A stretch of 21,152 nt of DNA from a virus. The position numbers were made by a program, and so were the translations under genes. The notes under the pieces are model-generated. The model searched no databases. It was given only the letters and a program-made list of their open reading frames with translations, and was not told the DNA's origin. The stretch covers positions 1 through 21,152 of IMG/VR virus record IMGVR_UViG_3300032242_000780; one strand, given 5' to 3'. Every line of letters starts with the position of its first letter. The stretch's first letter is position 1. Shown one piece after another: positions 6,305 to 16,255 of this stretch.

Positions 6305-7218
6305 GGTATTGGCACCCTAGTTTGTCCAGTGCGGTAAGCATCAGTACGCTCCATACCGTCGCCCAGACGTTTAGCCAAACCAAGTGCCTCTGTGTACCGT
6401 CCTTGATACAGTGAAAGCATATCTGCCTCACCTTTCATAAAGGTATAGGCTTCCATCAGTGTTCCGTACAGTAGTACAGAATCAAAGTTATCCCCAAGCC
6501 AAGAAGTTCCGTCGGGGTTGTTAACTGTAGTAACGGTTGCCGTGCAGGAAACTCCAGTGCCGCCAATGCTGGCAATTGGCACAGTCAAAGAATCGCCAAC
6601 TTTATAAAACGATCCGCCGTTAGCAATAGTTACCGAAGATACCGTATTGGATGCAACAACCACCGTAGCGGTCGCGCCTGTGCCAGAACCGCCCGTCAGG
6701 GCAACGTTGTAGTACGTACCATTGGTAAACGATCCAGACGCAGATACAGAGCCCAGCGCCGTGACAATACCCTGCACAATAGATGCAGGATAGAAGAAGT
6801 AGTGAAGCTCAAGGTTATAGTTGGTATCCGGTGTCGGGCCAACAATAAACGTTAGTTCATTGGGTAATGTTGTTTGCGGCCCAAAGATACCGTAATACTT
6901 TGGAGCGCCCTTAATTGACGGATCTGGATATGCTTCACGCATGAAGTTAACATCTTTATCCAGCAGGTAATTATAAATACCTGTTGTTTGATCAATTAAT
7001 GCAAATGAATAAACAGCTAAAAAATCACTAGGCGCAGAAATATACTTGTTGTTATATGAAGCCACGCCAGTCACATTCTTGCGAAGTGCTGGAAATTGGA
7101 TGGAATTGAATACGCGCTGCTCAGCCTGCTGGACAAACGTAGGAATGTCGGCAACGAACGTAGACTCAGTATTCTGAGTGTAGTCCTGTACAAGCTGAAC
7201 AAGCTGCGCGTAGTTCAT
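6301..7218 (-). CDS. Head-tail adaptor protein (SU10-type adaptor) with an inserted beta domain
   Basis: The 305-residue protein opens with MNYAQLVQLVQDYTQNTES, then IPTFVQQAEQRVFNSIQFPA (25-44), and ends with GTSWLGDNFDSVLLYGTLME (from 237) and ALGLAKRLGDGMERTDAYR. This is the pattern of the phage adaptor family that includes the phage SU10 adaptor, which binds the portal and connects it to the tail. The helical core is interrupted at about residues 150-236 by a Gly/Thr/Val-rich segment with NGTYYNVALTGGSGTGATA and GGSFYKVGDSLTV motifs, nucleotides about 6511-6771. In family members I recall, the flanks (YYPxSIV and GTSWLGDNFD) sit nearly adjacent, so this looks like a domain insertion. The stop overlaps the next start by four bases. 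Identification as an adaptor is strong; the insertion is inferred from remembered family members. Confidence 0.88.
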   Translation of the reverse strand: MNYAQLVQLVQDYTQNTESTFVADIPTFVQQAEQRVFNSIQFPALRKNVTGVASYNNKYISAPSDFLAVYSFALIDQTTGIYNYLLDKDVNFMREAYPDPSIKGAPKYYGIFGPQTTLPNELTFIVGPTPDTNYNLELHYFFYPASIVQGIVTALGSVSASGSFTNGTYYNVALTGGSGTGATATVVVASNTVSSVTIANGGSFYKVGDSLTVPIASIGGTGVSCTATVTTVNNPDGTSWLGDNFDSVLLYGTLMEAYTFMKGEADMLSLYQGRYTEALGLAKRLGDGMERTDAYRTGQTRVPIP

Positions 7219-7487
7219 GCCATCGGGCCTCGGGCCATAACGCCTTTAGTTGCACAACCAGTGCCACGGATTTTGATGCCAGTTGTTTCTACGTTATCGT
7301 TGATACCAATGCTCACGCCGTTTGGCACAGGGTCTTCCAAGCTAACTTGGTCAGCCACTTTCTTGGTCATATATTCCTTGCGTGGAATACTGCCGTCAAT
7401 AGCTTGGCCTTTGGAGTTGTGTGGCTGGGCATAAACGGACGCTGGCCCGTTTTCCTTGCCCATGCTTTTGGAGCTAAATTTAGCCAT
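7215..7487 (-). CDS. Small basic phage protein with RGTGxATKG/ARGPMA C-terminus
   Basis: The 90-residue protein starts MAKFSSKSMGKENGPASVYA and ends with IKIRGTGCATKGVMARGPMA. I recall similar C-terminal motifs in short proteins beside adaptor genes of environmental phages. It contains no membrane segment or known catalytic motif. Its ATG shares one base with the upstream stop (TAATG) and its own stop overlaps the adaptor start by four bases, so three genes are coupled. Its position between a KGG-motif protein and the adaptor suggests a virion-associated role. No function is known to me. Confidence 0.8.
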   Translation of the reverse strand: MAKFSSKSMGKENGPASVYAQPHNSKGQAIDGSIPRKEYMTKKVADQVSLEDPVPNGVSIGINDNVETTGIKIRGTGCATKGVMARGPMA

Positions 7488-7753
7488 TATTTACCCCTTG
7501 AAGAGCTGCGTTGATTCATTGCGCGAGCCATATTGCGGCCCATAGCTTTCATTGCCTGACCAGTTACGCCGCCCTTAGCCATGCGGTCAATGCCGCCTTT
7601 TTTAAGCACAATCTTTGTGCCTTTACCGCCTTTATGCTCTTGCATATCATGCTCTTTAAAGGCTTTTTTGATCATAGCAACATCTTGCTTTTTATCCATT
7701 GCCTCTTCGCGCTTTTGCTCAGATTTGGATTCACCCATTTCTTTTTTAGCCAT
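7487..7753 (-). CDS. Small Lys/Met/Gly-rich phage protein (KGG-motif family)
   Basis: This 88-residue highly basic protein has AGGAG upstream of its ATG. Key segments are EAMDKKQDVAMIKKAFKEHD (17-36), HKGGKGTKIVLKKGG (40-54), DRMAKGGVTGQAM and a C-terminal GRNMARAMNQRSSSRGK. The DKKQ...KKAFK-HD...HKGGKG pattern recurs in environmental phage genomes as an unnamed short protein. The DKKQ and KKGG/AKGG segments also resemble the 123-residue protein at 10062-10433, so the two may be distant paralogues. The charge suggests nucleic-acid or capsid-interior contact, which is inference only. It is coupled by a one-base overlap to the next gene. Confidence 0.82.
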   Translation of the reverse strand: MAKKEMGESKSEQKREEAMDKKQDVAMIKKAFKEHDMQEHKGGKGTKIVLKKGGIDRMAKGGVTGQAMKAMGRNMARAMNQRSSSRGK

Positions 7754-7762
7754 AATAAACTC

Positions 7763-8152
7763 CTATGTTACCGATACTGTGACTGTACCCACACTTGCAG
7801 TCGTTTGCAAATAATTTGGTGTTAGAGCAGCCGTAAAACTGCTGGCTCCTCCAATTGGATTCCAGCCCCATTGTAAATCCCGCGAACCGCCACCGGGGTA
7901 TCCCAAAGTATCCAGTCCAGAAGAATAATAACTACGATCTGGCCTTGGATTCCTTACGCCCTGCGGATCATCAACTGGGAACATACCAAGCTGCAATTGC
8001 GGCTGATCTGGATCCCAGCATTGTGGACACACAAGCAATTCATAGTTTTTGGTTTTAATAACTTCGCGCTTAAGCTCAGTTAACAAAAACCGAAAACCAC
8101 ATCTATCGCATTCCGCAATGGAATTCTTACCGGAAGAAAACCTATTGCCCAT
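7763..8152 (-). CDS. Zinc-ribbon-containing phage structural-operon protein
   Basis: The 129-residue protein carries two CxxC pairs, C15/C18 (ECDRCGF) and C42/C45 (LLVCPQCWD), separated by 23 residues. This is the spacing of a small zinc ribbon, inferred to bind one zinc ion. The segment after it, PQLQLGMFPVDDPQGVRNPRP (about 51-71), is conserved in a family I recall in phages next to head-completion genes. The C-terminal third is Gly/Ser/Thr-rich (GGASSFTAALTPNYLQT). The gene begins immediately after the stop of the head-completion protein (TAAATG), so it is probably translated together with it. A structural or assembly role is more likely than transcription control given its place, but this is inference. 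Confidence 0.83.
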   Translation of the reverse strand: MGNRFSSGKNSIAECDRCGFRFLLTELKREVIKTKNYELLVCPQCWDPDQPQLQLGMFPVDDPQGVRNPRPDRSYYSSGLDTLGYPGGGSRDLQWGWNPIGGASSFTAALTPNYLQTTASVGTVTVSVT

Positions 8153-9085
8153 TTAGTAACTCCGACCGATAAACTGCTGGCGCGGAACAAACCGCACAGC
8201 CGCTTTTTCTCTATCCTCATCTGATGCCATTTGCCAAGCTTCATCGTACTGGGCTTTTAGCACCTGTAAACGGTTGGTTCCATCGGGAACCTTTAATGCC
8301 AAATAATATGCAAGCCCAGCAATCATGGCTGGGTAAAACCGGAACGGGACATCTGCAACGTTTACACCACTACCGGCGTCTTGGTTGCGGCGAAGTCTCC
8401 AATACGCAAATGTGTACGTTTGACCGCCATCTGGAATAGGCCAAACTGTAACTGCGGGCAATCTTTGAACAATGACAGCCGCTCCCACGCTATGTGAGGC
8501 TGCTGTTGTATTGTTTTGTCCACGAGCCACTGTGTTTATTGTGTTGCCAGATATGTACTGATAGAAGACTGTTTCAGTATCTATTAGTAGAAACCCTGAT
8601 GCAGATAGGCCAACGGTCGAGCTTAGTGTGATGGTTGTATCAGTTGCAGATACAGCCGAAGCTATAGTTATTGTTGTTGGTGAGTTTTGAGCATCTTGGC
8701 GCTGCACCCAAACTTGAATTGGGCGAGACTGCTGGAGCTTATTGGGCAACGTCGCATAGGTAGAAACACTAATACGAGTGATGGTCAGGTCAGCTTGATT
8801 AGATGTGCTGTTAGCCTGCGTGCGAATTACGTGTTCCAAGAGATCTACCGTATCAGACGGTAGAGCATAAGTAGACTGTCCTTGAACAAGGGTAATTGTC
8901 CCTTGATCCATAGTCCACATATTTATGCCACGATTTGCCCAGTCTGCAAAAAGGATGTTTAAAGATCGGCGGGCGGTTCGTAAGTCATAACCAGTGCGTA
9001 GCTCACTTCCAACGCGCTCAAACGCCTCCTCCACAATCTCCGTGAGATCGGGATTAAACGCTGTGGAGCCGGAAGTGATAGCCAT
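8153..9085 (-). CDS. Head-completion / tail accessory protein (P22 gp4-like) with an inserted beta domain
   Basis: The 310-residue protein has a helical N-terminal domain: LTEIVEEAFERVGSELRTGY (14-33), then RRSLNILFADWANRGINMW (39-57), which resembles the tail accessory and head-completion proteins that bind the portal in P22-like and related phages. A strand region (TITLVQGQSTYALPSDTVDL) follows. Residues about 138-208 (nucleotides about 8462-8674) hold TTITLSSTVGLSASGFLLID, ISGNTINTVARGQNNTTAA and SVGAAVIV, a beta-hairpin module I have seen embedded in many unrelated phage proteins. The family core resumes with RLPAVTVWPIPDGGQTYTFA and YWRLRR, then a helical C-terminus. It sits three genes upstream of the adaptor, consistent with portal-vertex assembly. 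Function is inferred from family resemblance. Confidence 0.83.
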   Translation of the reverse strand: MAITSGSTAFNPDLTEIVEEAFERVGSELRTGYDLRTARRSLNILFADWANRGINMWTMDQGTITLVQGQSTYALPSDTVDLLEHVIRTQANSTSNQADLTITRISVSTYATLPNKLQQSRPIQVWVQRQDAQNSPTTITIASAVSATDTTITLSSTVGLSASGFLLIDTETVFYQYISGNTINTVARGQNNTTAASHSVGAAVIVQRLPAVTVWPIPDGGQTYTFAYWRLRRNQDAGSGVNVADVPFRFYPAMIAGLAYYLALKVPDGTNRLQVLKAQYDEAWQMASDEDREKAAVRFVPRQQFIGRSY

Positions 9086-9087
9086 GA

Positions 9088-9264
9088 TTATTTCCTCAAG
9101 CCTTTAAGCGTCATTGCAAGGCGTGCTTGCTTCCCGGTTGTTCCGGAAGATTTGGCTGCTTTTGCCAGCTTACCTGCGGGAATAGGCTCACCTTCCTTTG
9201 CGCCAAGCTTTTTGCGAAGCGCGCCGGGGTTTTTAATTGCCTTTTGAATCCATTTTTCAGCCAT
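9088..9264 (-). CDS. Very small basic phage protein, 58 residues
   Basis: Translation of the minus strand from the ATG at 9264 gives 58 residues starting MAEKWIQKAIKNPGALRKKL and ending QARLAMTLKGLRK, then TAA. The start shares one base with the upstream stop (TAATG), and the stop lies two bases before the next ATG, exactly filling what would otherwise be a 180-base gap. The protein is strongly basic with an amphipathic helical N-terminus. I recall KWIQKAI-PGALRK-type short proteins in environmental phages as unnamed conserved proteins, which supports it being real. Its function is unknown. It may belong with the neighbouring small basic virion-associated proteins. Confidence 0.8.
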   Translation of the reverse strand: MAEKWIQKAIKNPGALRKKLGAKEGEPIPAGKLAKAAKSSGTTGKQARLAMTLKGLRK

Positions 9265-9497
9265 TATCTAAATCCCGCCGTTTTCTTTGCAATGGTTTTA
9301 GGTTGTGCAACAAATTGTTTCCCAGCCGCTTTGCCTTCTCGCTTTGCTTTAGTGGTGGCTGCATATTCTGCTGGGCTAAGAGACTTTATTGCTTTCTCGG
9401 GCAAGTATCGCTCTCCCGTCTTGCTGGACGGTTTGCCAGATTTGGTGCGCCATTTCTGGTCACCCCAATCCTTGAGCGATTGCTGCGGCGCTTTCAT
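9264..9497 (-). CDS. Small basic conserved phage protein
   Basis: This 77-residue protein reads LKDWGDQKWRTKSGKPSS (8-25), then TGERYLPEKAIKSLSPAEYA (27-46) and a Lys-rich end with KKTAGFR. The W-x-KWRTKSGKPS...GERYLP...L-EYAAT-KAKR pattern is one I recognise in environmental phages and cyanophages and, in part, in proteins of some giant viruses, usually unnamed (possibly DUF5872-related, not certain). It has no membrane segment. It is coupled to its neighbours on both sides by ATGA and TAATG overlaps. A nucleic-acid-binding or virion-internal role is possible from its charge, but this is inference. Confidence 0.82.
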   Translation of the reverse strand: MKAPQQSLKDWGDQKWRTKSGKPSSKTGERYLPEKAIKSLSPAEYAATTKAKREGKAAGKQFVAQPKTIAKKTAGFR

Positions 9498-9625
9498 TCA
9501 AAATCTTCAGTGGTTAAATTCGCTTCTTCAAAGGCCAGCTCTTCAAGAACTTCTTCCGTTCCACAAGTGCATGGCCCATCTTCTATAACAGCGCAATCAC
9601 TCATATGTCCTGCGTATTCAATCAC
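9494..9625 (-). CDS. Tiny acidic Cys-containing protein, 43 residues, GTG start
   Basis: From the GTG at 9625 the frame encodes 43 residues, including DCAVIEDGPCTCGTEEVLEE, and stops at 9494 overlapping the next ATG by four bases. An AGGAGG sequence lies five to eight bases upstream of the GTG, better placed than for the alternative ATG at 9604 (36 residues). The GTG also overlaps the upstream stop by eight bases, a spacing seen repeatedly in this operon. Unlike its basic neighbours it is strongly acidic, with three cysteines including a CxC pair. It fills an otherwise empty 120-base gap. Function unknown; reality is supported by the exact overlaps and the ribosome-binding site. Confidence 0.7.
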   Translation of the reverse strand: MIEYAGHMSDCAVIEDGPCTCGTEEVLEELAFEEANLTTEDFE

Positions 9626-10058
9626 GATAGCCTCCTCCTGCTGCTTTGTACTTCTTAGCTACAAGCTGCGCTTTGCGTGCTGACCACTGACCTGCGCCGG
9701 TTCCTTGCGTTGCTGCTGCTTTTACTTGGGACACAATCTTCTTGCGAAGACTGGGTTTTGTGTAATTGCCAGCAGCATTAACGCCGCCACCCTGTTTCAT
9801 GTAACCCATCTTATTACGAACTTCTTGCGGAAGTTTTGAAAGCCCCGGATTGTCTTCTGGAACTTCTTTTAACTCTCCGCCAGTAGCCATCTTTTTGGGC
9901 TTTTTACCAGCTTCTTTCATGGCAATAGCTGTTGCCGCCTGTTGAGCTAATCCACCTTTTTTATATTCAGTGAAATCAGTGTCATCACGGCGAGCAGTCT
10001 TCTTGCCAGTGGGCATTTTGGAGGGGCTAACAGCCCCCATTCCACGGCTTGCCATCAT
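9618..10058 (-). CDS. Small basic phage protein with KGG and GQWSARK motifs
   Basis: The 146-residue protein has a Lys/Gly-rich N-terminal half with YKKGGLAQQAATAIAM and KKMATGGELKEVPEDN, then MGYMKQGGGVN, and a conserved C-terminal domain, about 98-146: YTKPSLRKKIVSQVKAAATQ, GAGQWSARKAQLVAKKYKAA, ending GGGYRD. The KP-LR-K...GQWSARKAQL...YK-GGGY pattern is one I associate with an uncharacterised domain found in phages and some giant viruses (possibly DUF5872). Two adjacent ATG codons begin it. Its stop is overlapped by the next gene. No catalytic residues are evident; a DNA-packaging or internal virion role is speculative. Confidence 0.83.
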   Translation of the reverse strand: MMASRGMGAVSPSKMPTGKKTARRDDTDFTEYKKGGLAQQAATAIAMKEAGKKPKKMATGGELKEVPEDNPGLSKLPQEVRNKMGYMKQGGGVNAAGNYTKPSLRKKIVSQVKAAATQGTGAGQWSARKAQLVAKKYKAAGGGYRD

Positions 10059-10061
10059 GAC

Positions 10062-10433
10062 TTAGCAAAATTTACCGACGGTTTTGCCGCGAGAAGCAAT
10101 ACCATCAGCACGTGATGATGCAGAGCCACCAGCAGCCATGCCGCCTTTTTTCATGCCCATCATTTGTTTTTTGTCCAAGGCCATGTCAGCTTTGGAGCCT
10201 TCTTTCATGCCGCGTTTTTCAACGTCTTTGCCAGACTTTTCAAAAGCAGCCATACTCATTCCGCCTTTAGCCATGCCGCCACGCTTCATGCCCGGGGCCA
10301 TGCCGGGAGGCATACCTTGTGGAGCCATGTCAGGAGGAGGGGCAACTGGTGCTGCGGGAGCTGCTGCGCGACGGCGAGGAGCCGACATACGCGCTGCAAG
10401 CATTGCTGCCATACGTGGATCTATTTGGGGCAT
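10062..10433 (-). CDS. Met/Gly/Lys-rich small protein with ASSRADGIA C-terminal tag
   Basis: This 123-residue protein has a Pro/Ala/Met-rich N-terminal half (MPQIDPRMAAMLAARMSAPR, then a run of PPDMAPQGMPPGMAPGMKRG) followed by repeated basic-Gly-Gly motifs: KRGG, AKGG, KKGG, AAGG. It ends with SASSRADGIASRGKTVG and a final KFC. That C-terminus is shared with the protein at 11235-11483. The DMALDKKQ segment resembles DKKQ in the protein at 7487-7753. It has low complexity and is probably disordered. AAGGAG precedes the ATG. No function is known to me; a virion-internal protein is a reasonable guess from position and composition. Confidence 0.82.
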   Translation of the reverse strand: MPQIDPRMAAMLAARMSAPRRRAAAPAAPVAPPPDMAPQGMPPGMAPGMKRGGMAKGGMSMAAFEKSGKDVEKRGMKEGSKADMALDKKQMMGMKKGGMAAGGSASSRADGIASRGKTVGKFC

Positions 10434-10442
10434 GATAGCTCC

Positions 10443-10637
10443 TTATTTACGGGACATACCGCCACCACACATTGCTTTAACGTGTTCGTGGTGAAGCTTG
10501 TGACCAGCGGCATGGGCCTTGAAATGCTCATGGTGCTGCTTGTGACCATCACCGCCATATGTTTTTTCCATATGCTCTTGGTGCATGGCGTGAGAAGGAG
10601 TTTCTTCCTTCATGTTTTGCATATCTTCGTGTTTCAT
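10443..10637 (-). CDS. Histidine-rich small protein
   Basis: The 64-residue protein contains 13 histidines and 7 methionines. A 14-residue unit occurs twice: HKQHHEHFKAH beginning at residue 32 and HKLHHEHVKAM beginning at residue 46. It ends MCGGGMSRK. A strong AAGGAG lies six to seven bases before the ATG. The clustered HxxHHxH pattern could bind divalent metals such as nickel, zinc or copper, and the Met and Cys residues fit copper too, but there is no direct evidence. It lies between two KGG-motif proteins, the upstream one also His-rich. The reading frame is supported by its site and spacing, and the composition is also what would be expected of a disordered virion protein. Confidence 0.78.
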   Translation of the reverse strand: MKHEDMQNMKEETPSHAMHQEHMEKTYGGDGHKQHHEHFKAHAAGHKLHHEHVKAMCGGGMSRK

Positions 10638-10646
10638 ATTAACTCC

Positions 10647-11057
10647 TTATTTAGTGCGACCGCCGCGCTTCATGCCAGTATCGCTACCAGACATCTTTGG
10701 CTCCATAGCACGGGTATGACCGCTCTTTTGGATGCCATGCTCACCGTAAGCTTTTTTGGTATTGGAACCTTTTTCAACATCTGAGCCCATGCTAGATGGC
10801 CCCATAGTCTCGCCGCCGCCAGCCATTTTCATGTGCTTTGCAGCTTCGCGCATATGGTGCGCAGCCAAATGATGATGGATAGTATCTCCACCTTGTGCCA
10901 TCTTTTTCATATCACCACCTTTTGAAAATGTGCGGCCTTTATCGGCTGCGGTAAAATCTTTGCCCACGGATTGTGGTACGCCTACTTTCTTGGCAAAAGC
11001 TGGATTATTAGCTATTGCTGCCATGAAATTATGTTGTTTTTTACTCGTCGATGGCAT
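10647..11057 (-). CDS. Small protein with MPSTSKKQHNFM head and KGG motifs (DUF3008-like)
   Basis: I place the start at the ATG at 11057, giving 136 residues that begin MPSTSKKQHNFMAAIANNPA; an in-frame start further upstream at 11105 would run deep into the holin-like gene. The SKKQHNFM...FAKKVGVPQSVGKDF segment (5-36) is recognisable from phage proteins often named DUF3008. The rest is low-complexity: FSKGGDMKKMAQGGD, a His-rich stretch (IHHHLAAHHMREAAKHM, about 61-77) and a C-terminal MKRGGRTK. It overlaps the upstream gene by 17 bases. The head motif may bind a partner and the tail is probably disordered, which is inference. Function is unknown. Confidence 0.8.
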   Translation of the reverse strand: MPSTSKKQHNFMAAIANNPAFAKKVGVPQSVGKDFTAADKGRTFSKGGDMKKMAQGGDTIHHHLAAHHMREAAKHMKMAGGGETMGPSSMGSDVEKGSNTKKAYGEHGIQKSGHTRAMEPKMSGSDTGMKRGGRTK

Positions 11058-11238
11058 CTTGACTGCTCTTAGCCTTACGATTAAAAATTGCTTGAACTGT
11101 ATCACTTTCGTATATACGGATACCTAGCCATATAATAGTAAAAAGCGATGCAATTGCCGGTAAAAACTCCATCATAGTACCTAACGTAGTAAATACGGCA
11201 AAACCATCTACAATATCTTTTGCGTTGTGATCGTTCAT
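11041..11238 (-). CDS. Putative holin-like membrane protein
   Basis: This 65-residue protein has one clear hydrophobic stretch at about residues 13-42 (FAVFTTLGTMMEFLPAIASL then FTIIWLGIRIYE), with charged ends and a basic, acidic C-terminal tail. Its size and the TLG...LP-I-SLFTIIW-GIRIYE pattern match small phage holins I recall, which make inner-membrane pores to release endolysin at the end of infection. Its ATG overlaps the preceding stop by four bases. No endolysin or spanin is visible in the window, and a lysis gene inside a structural cluster is not typical, so another membrane role cannot be excluded. Holin assignment is moderately confident. Confidence 0.72.
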   Translation of the reverse strand: MNDHNAKDIVDGFAVFTTLGTMMEFLPAIASLFTIIWLGIRIYESDTVQAIFNRKAKSSQDAIDE

Positions 11239-11483
11239 ACGTATGTACCCCTAGTTTTCCCGCGTTGGGCAATACCATCTGCACGGGATGATGCGCTAGA
11301 AACTTTACCGCCCTTAGCTTTATTAACCGTGGGCTCATCAACTGGCGTTGAGTCAGGATAAACGATGGGCTTAGGCATTGGCTTTGGCACGGGTTTAATA
11401 ACAATTTTTGCTTTAACCGGCGCTGGCATTGTGGATGTAGGCTCATCCACCGGTGTTGCGTTCTGGTATTTGTAGTCAGCCAT
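11235..11483 (-). CDS. Pro/Lys-rich small protein with ASSRADGIA C-terminal tag
   Basis: The 82-residue protein contains two PVDEPT segments (about 11-16 and 47-52), a Pro/Lys alternation (KAKIVIKPVPKPMPKPIVYP) and a C-terminal AKGGKVSSASSRADGIAQRG ending KTRGTYV. The last 20 or so residues match the end of the protein at 10062-10433. The KPxPKPxP stretch should be extended and flexible, in the manner of TonB-like linkers, but no membrane anchor is present. It is coupled to the holin-like gene by an ATGA overlap. Role unknown; the tag suggests a shared partner or destination with the other tagged protein. Confidence 0.8.
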   Translation of the reverse strand: MADYKYQNATPVDEPTSTMPAPVKAKIVIKPVPKPMPKPIVYPDSTPVDEPTVNKAKGGKVSSASSRADGIAQRGKTRGTYV

Positions 11484-11491
11484 ACATCACC

Positions 11492-11737
11492 TTAACAGTT
11501 CCAAGCCCGAAGGCTCTTGTTTATACGAGAATTCGGGTCTTTGGCGGTCTTCTCGCTGGTAAGTTTTTTCTTCATCCCAGTCATCCTTGCACAAAAAGAG
11601 TCGCGCCTGCTGCCGCCTTCCGGCTGGGGAGGTTTCAAATTCATGCCTTGCTTTTTGGCTGAGGCTCTCCCCTTGGCGTTTAAACCGCCATTGGGATTCT
11701 TGCCTTCCTTGCGAGTCCATGCTGGAGACTTAGCCAT
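11492..11737 (-). CDS. Small conserved basic phage protein (DUF6321-like)
   Basis: I choose the ATG at 11737, giving 81 residues; it overlaps the upstream stop by eight bases, while an earlier in-frame ATG at 11788 would add an unrelated hydrophobic stretch. The sequence KSPAWTRKEGKNPNGGLNAK (3-22), then GRASAKKQGMNLKPPQPEGG, RRDSFCARMTGMKKKLTSEK and DPNSRINKSLRAWNC is one I recognise from many phages as a short unnamed protein (I believe DUF6321). Two cysteines are present (one in SFCARM, one at the C-terminus). It is basic and probably globular. The overlapping ORF at 11487-11720 in another frame is a shadow. Function unknown. Confidence 0.86.
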   Translation of the reverse strand: MAKSPAWTRKEGKNPNGGLNAKGRASAKKQGMNLKPPQPEGGSRRDSFCARMTGMKKKLTSEKTAKDPNSRINKSLRAWNC

Positions 11738-13050: not shown

Positions 13051-13074
13051 GTTTAAATATACACCAATTTAAAC
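13051..13074. promoter_or_regulatory. Operator-like inverted repeat inside the promoter
   Basis: Perfect 8-base arms GTTTAAAT (13051-13058) and ATTTAAAC (13067-13074) are separated by 8 bases. The repeat covers the -10 element and most of the spacer of the promoter, where a bound repressor would block RNA polymerase. The arms are AT-rich, so a chance origin is possible. No regulator gene is shown to bind it. Confidence 0.4.
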
Positions 13075-13083
13075 GCTTGTCAA
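13056..13083 (-). promoter_or_regulatory. Sigma70-type promoter driving the leftward genes from 12965
   Basis: Minus strand TTGACA (13078-13083) is a perfect -35 box. TATATT (13056-13061) differs from the -10 consensus by one base, and the spacer is 16 bases. The expected transcription start is near 13049, about 85 bases before the ATG of the 232-residue gene. The -35 box begins two bases after the T-run of the capsid-gene terminator. Confidence 0.72.
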
Positions 13084-13119: not shown

Positions 13120-14022
13120 TTAGTAAGAGCCGTAGATTCCCAGCGGATCGCTCCAGCCGAAGCTGTAACGCTCGCGGGACTTATAACGGACGTTGCCGGT
13201 ATCAAAGTCACCATCCATGCTGTTCTGGAGGGGTACACGCTCAAAGTGCTTCAAGCCGTTTGGAACGTCAGTGGTCAGGAACCATGCGTTGGTAGCGGTC
13301 AAGAAGTGATTGACGGTGTAACCTTCTGGAATAGAACCATTGTTCTTCAGCGCGTTGATATCGTTGTTGTTAGTACCAACACGGAGTTCGGTATCCAACA
13401 AGCGAGTAGCAACGAACATCAGAGCAGGAGGAACAATCAGCTTGCGGGGCTTAGCTGCGATCAGCAGGCCGCGCTCGTCTGTCCAAGCTGCGATGGCGAT
13501 AACGGCGGCTTCTAAGGAAGTCTCATTAAGGTCAGCAGGAGTAACAGGCGTATTGCCGTTGGTTCCACCGTTCACCAGCGGGTGAGCAGAGTTGAACAAA
13601 GAGACGCCATCACCACCAACGTATTGCGCGCTGAAGCCATTGTTCAAAATGGCAGCGGCTTTAACTTGCTTGGTGTATGCCATAGCACGGGCCAAACCTT
13701 TGGTGTAGCGAGCAGACAGGCTGTCGTACAGGTTATCTTCAATTGCCTCTTCGGTAATCGAGAAACCCAAAGCGATGGTTTCGTGGTTATAGCGAGCAGT
13801 CCATGCCTCTTGTGCATTGTCATACTGAATGGCTTGGCCCTCATTCTTGACAGGTGCAGCAGAGAAGCCGGAAAGCTTCGTCTCTTCTTCAAAGCTACGC
13901 TCCGATGTCTCGGTTTCGTAGATTTCTTTATGCTCTTCGCCGTAGCGGGCATATTCCAGACCAAACAAAGCATTCAGTCCGGGGAGCAGCTCTTTAAGTA
14001 GCTGTGCGCGTGAAATAGCCAT
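13120..14022 (-). CDS. Major capsid protein (Mu gpT-like, HK97 fold)
   Basis: The 300-residue protein starts MAISRAQLLKELLPGLNALF and contains YEAR-like N-arm residues, EETKLSGFSAAPVKNEGQAI (46-65), a YNHETIALGFSITEEAIED segment (78-96), and SLFNSAHPLVNGG (141-153). The SAHPL motif and the overall layout match the major head subunit family of phage Mu gpT, an HK97-fold shell protein. The C-terminal half (IVPPALMFVATRLLDTELRV, then SDPLGIYGS at the end) fits that fold. AAGGAG precedes the ATG, and a strong terminator follows the stop, as is common for an abundant protein. It is preceded by a scaffold-like gene. Confidence is high that it is the shell protein. Confidence 0.9.
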   Translation of the reverse strand: MAISRAQLLKELLPGLNALFGLEYARYGEEHKEIYETETSERSFEEETKLSGFSAAPVKNEGQAIQYDNAQEAWTARYNHETIALGFSITEEAIEDNLYDSLSARYTKGLARAMAYTKQVKAAAILNNGFSAQYVGGDGVSLFNSAHPLVNGGTNGNTPVTPADLNETSLEAAVIAIAAWTDERGLLIAAKPRKLIVPPALMFVATRLLDTELRVGTNNNDINALKNNGSIPEGYTVNHFLTATNAWFLTTDVPNGLKHFERVPLQNSMDGDFDTGNVRYKSRERYSFGWSDPLGIYGSY

Positions 14023-14910: not shown

Positions 14911-15360
14911 TTATTTAACACCAGCACCAAAGGATGTACCCCGAGTACTAGAAGATTTGCGTTCACTAAACTTTGACATACGTGGATCGCTGTCCCGCAT
15001 GAAATTGTTGTCCACTGATTCCATTTGAGCTTGGTTTTGTTTGGCGTAATAAGCATTCATGGCGTCTACTTTTTCCTTGGAGTTTTTGCATAGCATTAAT
15101 CCTCCCATTTCAACATTACCACTTGTGGTGCCTTCCAACATAAGCTCTGGGTGGTCAACTGCCTTTACCGGTTCCCATCCATCACGGCGTTTACGTGAAA
15201 CGTTCGTTGGATCGGACTGTCCAAGAATATGAGTCGCTATCCAGCGAAACTCTATTCCGGGTACAGGCGTCGGATCTGGCAATGTACTGGATGGCTTATA
15301 TTCGTAGCGCATCTCTTTATCGCGTGAAATCAAATCTCGTTGTGTGCGTGTATCAGCCAT
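14911..15360 (-). CDS. Conserved head-operon protein, function unknown
   Basis: The 149-residue protein reads MADTRTQRDLISRDKEMRYE (1-20), then PVPGIEFRWIATHILGQSDP and NVSRKRRDGWEPVKAVDHPE (53-72), and ends in a Ser/Lys/Gly-rich tail. The GIEFRW and KRRDGWEPVKA motifs recur in an unnamed family I recall next to scaffold and capsid genes in environmental phages. It overlaps the scaffold stop by eight bases, so its translation is probably coupled to it. The C-terminal 30 residues look disordered. An assembly or capsid role is inferred from the neighbourhood. Confidence 0.82.
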   Translation of the reverse strand: MADTRTQRDLISRDKEMRYEYKPSSTLPDPTPVPGIEFRWIATHILGQSDPTNVSRKRRDGWEPVKAVDHPELMLEGTTSGNVEMGGLMLCKNSKEKVDAMNAYYAKQNQAQMESVDNNFMRDSDPRMSKFSERKSSSTRGTSFGAGVK

Positions 15361-16255
15361 TACTATTCTCCATCTTTGCTACTTGTGCAGCATATTGCTG
15401 CGGGGTTAAACCAAACTTTTTAGCCAAAGCTAATTGCGTTGTTGTCATTTGGATCCGTTTGGTTCCAGATGACCGCGTTGCTGGTGCAACTACAGAAGCA
15501 GGTCGTCGATTAGTCTCGGTTTTACCGAACACTTCCGGGAACTTGTTTCTCACGCGAGCATCAATTTGCTCGTAATACTCGTCACTGCGCGGGTCAATAC
15601 CCGATTTCATTAATTTTTGATGCAGCCCTAATGAAAAGCTGGTAACTTCCTCAAAACCATCTGCCCCGAACCACTGGTTTTTTGCTTGCCAGCGCAAGGA
15701 TTTATCGTCGGGTTGTTCCGGTTTTTGAATGAATTGTTCGGGTTGTATCACATCGCTTGCAGTTTGTAAAGGCTGCGGGCGATAATTTCTGATACTCTCC
15801 ATTTTCCATTTAGCATCAGTTAATGCTTCTTGGGCAGATAGTATTGCATCAGCATCGTAAGCTTCTTGGGCGGCTTTATACTCCCGGCGGGCTTTTTCAT
15901 ACTCTGCTTGGGCGGCTCCCAAGGCGGTGGTGGCAATATTGCGGGTGCCCTCTTCCACATAACCTTTGAGCTGTTTGTTTTCTTGCAACAGTCGCTGGGT
16001 TAGTTGCTCCAACTCCTGCTTTTCGCGCATAGTTGCCTCTTTGGCTCGGCGCTCATCATGGCGGGAATGGGTTAATTCCTTAATACGCTTTTTGACGTTA
16101 TCGGAATATGACTCAATCTCCTCATCCGTAGGGTCGGTTATTTCTTTTTCCAAAGGTTTGCGACCTTGATCTTGCTCGGGAGTATCGTCCACGATATCAA
16201 TTTCAAACTCTTCACCCTTGGTTTCAACTTCATCGGGGAATTTAAATTCATCCAT
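15353..16255 (-). CDS. Probable capsid scaffolding protein
   Basis: The 300-residue protein has a strongly acidic N-terminal part (1-50), a long predicted coiled coil at about 55-145 (heavy in Glu, Lys, Arg, Gln and Ala), and a basic helical C-terminus with TTTQLALAKKFGLTPQQYAA at 271-290. This layout (acidic, helical, charged tail) is typical of phage scaffolding proteins, which guide shell assembly and leave before DNA entry. Its place between portal-linked genes and the capsid gene supports this. An AAAGGA site precedes the ATG by a few bases. No protease motif is present, so if the scaffold is cleaved, another protein does it. Confidence moderate to high. Confidence 0.82.
   Translation of the reverse strand: MDEFKFPDEVETKGEEFEIDIVDDTPEQDQGRKPLEKEITDPTDEEIESYSDNVKKRIKELTHSRHDERRAKEATMREKQELEQLTQRLLQENKQLKGYVEEGTRNIATTALGAAQAEYEKARREYKAAQEAYDADAILSAQEALTDAKWKMESIRNYRPQPLQTASDVIQPEQFIQKPEQPDDKSLRWQAKNQWFGADGFEEVTSFSLGLHQKLMKSGIDPRSDEYYEQIDARVRNKFPEVFGKTETNRRPASVVAPATRSSGTKRIQMTTTQLALAKKFGLTPQQYAAQVAKMENSNG

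Follow-up and report, generated by a model that had tools for sequence, protein, structure and literature searches.

A short C-terminal peptide, here called the tag, is shared by otherwise unlike small proteins encoded in the window, a stretch of 21,152 bases that constitutes the IMG/VR virus record IMGVR_UViG_3300032242_000780. The late genes of the window are on the minus strand, as is every feature of it described below. The tagged genes lie in an interval, the island, that is bounded upstream by the gene for the major capsid protein (13120..14022; Pfam Phage_capsid_4, 59.7 bits; phrog_371) and downstream by g11, the gene for a head-tail adaptor (8153..9085; Pfam SU10_adaptor, 33 bits, above the cut-off). 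The original prediction placed at 7215-11737 a tightly packed block of thirteen small basic proteins with KGG motifs, possibly internal to the virion. The open reading frames (ORFs) are present and tightly packed, but those encoding 43 to 146 amino acids (aa) number twelve, and thirteen is reached only if the zinc-ribbon gene, which was said to interrupt the set, is counted. Most of the products are basic, but those of g03, g05, g08 and g12 are not. The overlaps are as described, comprising 8 bases for g162/g01 and g07/g08, 4 for g02/g03, g08/g09 and g14/adaptor2, and 1 for g09/g10 and g13/g14; a further overlap of 17 bases occurs at g03/g04. Synteny was also found: in related contigs of IMG/VR, orthologues of nearly all the ORFs of the block are conserved in both sequence and gene order, and these ORFs are therefore genes.

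Two of them, g02 (82 aa, 11235..11483) and g06 (123 aa, 10062..10433), encode proteins that end alike and match a hidden Markov model (HMM) of the tag with E 8e-18 and 4e-11, respectively. The tag of g02, KAKGGKVSSASSRADGIAQRGKTRGTYV, occupies 11238..11321 and was recognized with the HMM and with BLASTP; the tag core of g06, GSASSRADGIASRGKTVGKFC, occupies 10065..10127. Both ends follow the pattern [K]GG..SASSRADGIAxRGKTxGxx-COOH and have 15 of 21 residues in common (BLASTP E 6e-08), which is the sole alignment found between the two proteins. The g06 product also contains internal MKRGG, MAKGG and MKKGG, and the body of g02, with the tag removed, belongs to a cluster of four. The consensus of the tag, K/M-x-x-GG-x-V-(S)A(S/K)R-A-D-G-(I/C/V)-A-x-(R/K)-G-K-T-(K/R)-G-xxx, spans about 25 residues. 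Within it the Asp is invariant and the order DGxAx(R/K)GKT is strict, an order that the core regular expression used in searching partly imposes.

A first regular expression located 16 tag ends across ten loci and none on the opposite strand. A scan of IMG/VR with the tag alignment yielded at least 447 confirmed cases among the matches listed, and 80 loci were kept. When the tag HMM was run over six frames of all loci, with a threshold of iE<1e-3, it detected 232 tagged ORFs, distributed over 91 loci; every one is on the strand of the late genes and none on the opposite one. Each locus has one to five tags, usually two or three, and most tags finish at the stop codon or a few residues before it. 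The bodies that remain when the tags are removed fall into 90 clusters; 199 of the 203 within-locus pairs are unlike and 4 are in the same cluster. The tag is thus a short conserved terminal peptide common to otherwise unrelated phage proteins. No family match was obtained for most of the bodies, which look disordered. Because such a search favors tag-rich loci, the fair count comes from loci selected by portal, blind to the tag; all seven of these that span capsid to adaptor carry one to three tags. Neither Pfam nor PHROGs has a model for the tag (69 carriers scanned), and no paper on such a tag was found. Two of these 69 proteins (L145, L150 and similar, where L numbers denote individual loci) match DUF6496, with a best E of 8e-10. 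A tagged family in L105, L147 and L178 gave the visual impression of an ADP-ribosyltransferase; Pfam and PHROGs found nothing for the members scanned, and the resemblance stays an impression.

The tag is restricted to the island of this one phage group. Of the 176 tags in the 73 loci where both anchors are present, 175 fall inside the stretch from the capsid gene to g11, which makes up 26% of the bases, and the sole exception replaces g13. The recurring order of genes is capsid, decoration, DUF6321, transmembrane protein, g04, g07, g09, g10, adaptor, zinc ribbon and then g13, g14 and adaptor2, with tagged genes interspersed among the set. When 11 longer records were searched whole, the tag matches fell in the island. 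Scanning again with a divergent form of the tag as query added 78 further loci, all 78 of this head type, with 275 tag matches on the same strand and none on the opposite one; here tags occurred also at the g13 position. In a bacterial and archaeal genome collection, one contig matched, and this was the phage island itself, binned into a lake metagenome genome. Searching isolate phages for the tag with tblastn gave no match, probably because of low-complexity filtering; direct reading revealed a tag at the corresponding place in Planktothrix phage Pag-Yong1, at the end of L006 24496-25422.

Comparison of related proteins indicates that the tag is modular and conserved at the protein level. Orthologues of DUF6321 at the same locus either end in ...RAWNC or run on as ...RAWNC-(A/K)(E/D)GG..-tag, the fused form being present in L106, L156, L162, L174 and L178; the tag has therefore been gained and lost. 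In 77% of related pairs, the tags are more nearly identical than the bodies. At identical tag residues, codons are shared in 42% of cases both within and between genomes, which implies that the tags are not recent copies of DNA and that their sequence is held at the level of protein. The tag is also the module with by far the most neighbor contexts, 93. Other modules recur in varied combinations through KKGG-like joints, namely the N-terminal part of g04, DUF6321, g10 and a FPDLTGDGKVTxADxLKGRGV stretch; in L160 (1452-1838), the g04 N-module is joined to DUF6321 through KKGG.

These joints bear on the KGG motif, for which the original prediction had specified in advance a frequency above that expected from composition. 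The count of [KRQ]GG in the block is indeed raised, 12 vs 3.3 expected from shuffles (P=2e-4), but the number of proteins containing it is not clearly so (5 vs 2.85, P=0.11), since the excess is due to repeats within g02, g04, g06, g07 and g13. In 73 related islands M[KA]xGG occurs 240 times, vs 11 expected in shuffles, and is located in unlike proteins; the z value is inflated because the islands are related. GG is found near 31% of internal alignment ends, vs 14% at random, and near 30% of starts, vs 20%, in pairs that are not independent. By these sequence patterns, KGG, which precedes the tag, often stands where shuffled modules meet. The idea that unlike small proteins share a targeting element has gained support, with the C-terminal tag, and not KGG, as that element.

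The remaining genes of the block can be described in order of transcription. The first, g01 (81 aa, pI 10.9, 11492..11737), encodes a basic protein that is a full-length member of DUF6321 (PF19846; 70 bits vs a gathering cut-off of 28.5, E 2.6e-19, positions 1-72 of 72). Next to g02 is g03 (65 aa, 11041..11238), whose acidic product, with orthologues at the same place, has a hydrophobic segment and is likely a membrane protein. The product of g04 (136 aa, 10647..11057) consists of an N-terminal module, MPSTSKKQHNFMAA..KKVGVPQSVGKDF, and a K/G/H-rich tail ending in KRGGRTK; many of its orthologues have the tag or a tag variant. The module matches phrog_16759 (E 1.5e-20) as well as phrog_22033 and phrog_25121, for which PHROGs gives the name "virion structural protein". 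Over 42 residues, the N-terminus of g04 and PHIKZ165.1 of phiKZ (58 aa; L089 5001-5177) share 79% identity, an unusually high value for a jumbo myovirus compared with a podovirus-type phage. The His-rich product of g05 (64 aa, pI 7.3, 10443..10637) has an orthologue in L009. Beyond g06 is g07 (146 aa, 9618..10058), with a conserved C-terminal module, AGNYTKP..QWSARKAQLVAKKYKAAGGGYRD, that matches phrog_17747 (E 3.3e-20) and is present in HMO-2011-type phages. The short acidic product of g08 (43 aa, pI 4.1, GTG start, 9494..9625) has a 38-aa counterpart in L009, and that of g09 (77 aa, basic, 9264..9497) matches phrog_14910 (E 3.4e-37) and is 80% identical in HMO-2011. The families phrog_16759, phrog_17747 and phrog_14910, matched by HMM with the N-terminal part of g04, the C-terminal part of g07 and g09, are all of unknown function. 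The basic, helical product of g10 (58 aa, 9088..9264) matches phrog_20603 (E 5e-7) and is 58% identical to gp44 of HTVC027P; an AlphaFold2 model was of low confidence, with helices only and no usable structure match. In four homologues of g10 (L112 3977-4246, L123 9625-9882, L164 5212-5466 and L002 20502-20768), the FPDLTGDGKVTxADxLKGRGV stretch is N-terminal and KGG-joined; it resembles an EF-hand or dockerin calcium loop, and no Pfam match was obtained for L112.

Downstream of g11 are g12 (7763..8152), which encodes the zinc-ribbon protein (CxxC...CxxC) and has orthologues in 67 of the 80 tag loci, g13 (88 aa, 7487..7753), which contains KGG and is untagged in the window, and g14 (90 aa, 7215..7487). 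Tag-like ends were seen at the place of g13 in L133, L198 and L206. The tail of g14, RGTGxATKGVMARGPMA, is nearly invariant across dozens of relatives. It was considered as a divergent tag and rejected (best E 0.085, hhalign probability 2%).

Around the block, the gene order is that of a head module. The terminase gene (20993-19494) comes first in transcription order and is directly followed by the portal gene (19485-16885), a gene for a GroES-like protein (a weak assignment, Cpn10 E 0.02) and, in the position of a scaffold gene, another (15353-16255) that precedes the capsid gene. By their order, two decoration-type genes separate the capsid gene from the small-protein block, and a second adaptor-type gene (adaptor2) is found downstream of g14. 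The block starts two genes past an internal promoter-like site, as the original prediction had it. This sigma-70-like match (TTGACA-16-TATATT, 11 of 12 positions, 13083-13056, that is 13056..13083 on the minus strand) falls in the interval between the capsid and decoration genes and, as a match to consensus, is a candidate internal promoter from which the island would be transcribed late; such -35/-10-like sites are no more numerous in the region than in shuffles. No RNA families or tRNAs were found.

Many close relatives of the window are present in IMG/VR, and no close DNA relatives were found among isolate phages. By portal, the nearest isolates are phage DSL-LC04, Pelagibacter phages HTVC027P and HTVC023P and Planktothrix phage Pag-Yong1, with 42-44% identity across about three quarters of the protein. 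The group is an uncultured, freshwater-type one with a podovirus-type head. The records OL906435.1, OQ594354.1 and PP438419.1 (Planktothrix phage Pag-Yong1, Synechococcus phage MinM2 and Planktothrix phage Pra-JY27) state different hosts; all are 65,014 long with equal portal match scores, and they are probably one genome. HTVC027P (gp44-gp52) and DSL-LC04 resemble the window in portal family and in having small K/G-rich genes beside the head genes, with DUF6321-like and g10-like members, but no C-terminal tag was found in that interval, and in HTVC027P the small genes lie between the portal and GroES-like genes rather than between capsid and adaptor. The HMO-2011-type phages conserve the g07 C-module and g09 in 16-19 isolates, but their portal and terminase are arranged differently and no tag was seen in the region read. 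The bacterial KGG stress-induced repeat family (Pfam "KGG") has the KGG tripeptide in common with the block, but the repeat model does not describe these small proteins, which have no Pfam match to it at E<=0.1.

The most direct information on the location of any member of the block comes from DUF6321, which is present in 526 phage records and on which no paper was found. Within the window's group it occurs as a stand-alone protein that can receive a C-terminal tag, and in P-SCSP1m it also stands alone, directly after the capsid gene. In the cyanomyoviruses (S-SM2 SSM2_109, S-CREM2 gp137), it forms the C-terminal domain of proteins of 165-708 aa encoded near the terminase genes. Small genes that are separate in the window's group are fused elsewhere; SSM2_109 combines DUF192 with DUF6321 (L090 5126-7252). 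A structural model of DUF6321 was moderate (pLDDT 71, helices) and had no match in the PDB. S-CREM2 gp137 belongs to DUF6321 (40.8 bits, above the Pfam cut-off; E 1e-18 with a broad HMM), and this protein was detected with 4 unique peptides in CsCl-purified virions, although the authors note that some of the detected proteins may be contaminants (PMC10665884). Two other S-CREM2 virion proteins, gp160 and gp136, look like relatives of the island by eye (KGG, xVWPSAYAS, GKPC); they gave no significant match and were not used.

A precedent for such an arrangement is provided by the internal proteins of T4 (IPI-IPIII, Alt), which, like the island proteins, are small, basic, quickly changing and phage-encoded, occur several per genome and share a short terminal peptide. 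They are a diverse set with only the capsid-targeting sequence in common (PMC3012670, PMC5694885). We claim no sequence similarity between that sequence and the tag. By analogy with T4, we tentatively favor, at somewhat less than an even chance, a portable C-terminal address, gained and lost on unrelated small proteins, that would bring an interchangeable set of cargo to the virion. The island would then hold constant small proteins (g01 with DUF6321, g03, g04, g07 and g09) together with fast-changing others, of which two to five in each genome carry the tag. The tag would dock each carrier onto one phage-encoded partner in the assembling head, such as the portal, scaffold or adaptor; we infer both this receptor and the cargo function from the analogy. 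The differing proteins would enter the head alongside the DNA or bound to it and would reach the cell at infection, and the KKGG/MxxGG stretches would act as joints between modules, including the joint ahead of the tag. Besides the properties of the tag itself, the detection of gp137 in S-CREM2 virions and the match of the g04 N-module to PHROGs with a virion-structural name speak for this reading. The virion-internal location is plausible rather than established, with indirect support from gp137.

Several observations weigh against this address. The T4 signal is N-terminal, 10-20 residues long and removed by the prohead protease, whereas the tag, of about 25 residues, is C-terminal in nearly all carriers; no protease was identified in the head module of the window, and none was searched for elsewhere. 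A receptor that co-evolved with the tag might have left a genome-specific dialect, and this was rejected, the likeness of tags being 0.708 within one genome and 0.711 between genomes; the lack of a dialect is consistent with a receptor surface that is very conserved or with nucleic acid. Detection in a virion is on record for none of the tagged proteins. Lysine-rich small proteins are easily overlooked by tryptic methods. The sole link to mass spectrometry concerns the untagged family of g01, in a distant myovirus and with a low coverage of 4.1%. The virion list of S-SZBM1 includes neither the DUF6321 protein nor the neighboring 707-aa DUF3008-like protein (PMC9146016). In the latter (L093 2502-4625), a weak DUF3008 N-terminus that scores below the cut-off is combined with an S-adenosylmethionine lyase domain, PF23780. 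Finally, the shell of P-SCSP1u, the same kind of cyanophage as P-SCSP1m, is without a cement protein, which agrees with an internal or a non-virion role.

A non-virion role is an alternative to which that S-SZBM1 list lends support: the island might encode late proteins for takeover, lysis support or chaperone-like tasks, the tag docking on a host factor in the cytoplasm or membrane. Small late genes are frequently not structural, and g03 looks membrane-spanning. We nevertheless consider this rather unlikely, given the strict placement of 175 of 176 tags between capsid and adaptor genes, the detection of a DUF6321 protein in S-CREM2 virions and the fact that the only tag contig in the bacterial and archaeal collection is the phage island itself. 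Unlikely, too, is that the tag is a basic, Gly-rich tail that binds nucleic acid, so that the proteins coat or condense DNA in the head like protamines and need no protein receptor. The tag and many of the bodies are basic and lysine-rich, the lysines of T4 internal proteins touch DNA phosphates in heads (PMC3012670), and a universal target would leave no dialect within genomes. An invariant acidic Asp and the strict, partly search-imposed DGxAx(R/K)GKT order are, however, over-constrained for a tail driven by charge; moreover, two independent scans both placed the tag with a single head type, and by eye several of the tagged bodies are acidic.

The position of tagged genes directly upstream of g11 and downstream of the decoration-type genes would suit docking to the head exterior or to the adaptor/tail vertex, with the carriers serving as minor decoration or neck proteins instead of internal cargo, but most tagged bodies look disordered, lack a family match and have no recognized adhesion domains, and we regard this as improbable. 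It is more doubtful still, and in our judgment very improbable, that the xxGG sites are cut by a protease at head maturation to free the modules. Cleavage at double glycines is known from some other viruses, and the enrichment of GG at module joints fits, but flexible linkers account for the same pattern and the head-module protease that would be needed was not found, as noted. Biased composition was an obvious concern, with K, G and A each above 11% of the small-protein set. That KGG and the tag are by-products of such bias is scarcely credible and, for the tag, has already been refuted by the M[KA]xGG excess over shuffles, by the 232 vs 0 HMM matches on the two strands and by synonymous codons that are randomized while the residues are kept.

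The original prediction knew of no described function for these proteins, and this was right, but several belong to named families (DUF6321, phrog_14910, phrog_17747, phrog_16759), so that "undescribed" applies to the tag and not to every gene of the block. The tag is new, terminal cargo-address peptides as such are known, and g01, g04, g07, g09 and g10 are in named but functionally uncharacterized families. Judged from its sequence, the tag looks like an address label that would direct many differing cargo proteins to a single site in the virion. If it is an address, it would supply a sequence rule for picking out, among the "hypothetical" proteins of an abundant and uncultured phage group, those that join the virion or the same complex, expose a pool of candidate injected effectors or anti-defense proteins, and give a short genetic handle by which proteins could be loaded into heads of this type. 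The many tiny K/G-rich ORFs of aquatic phages are also shown to be assembled from shuffled modules and not to be noise.

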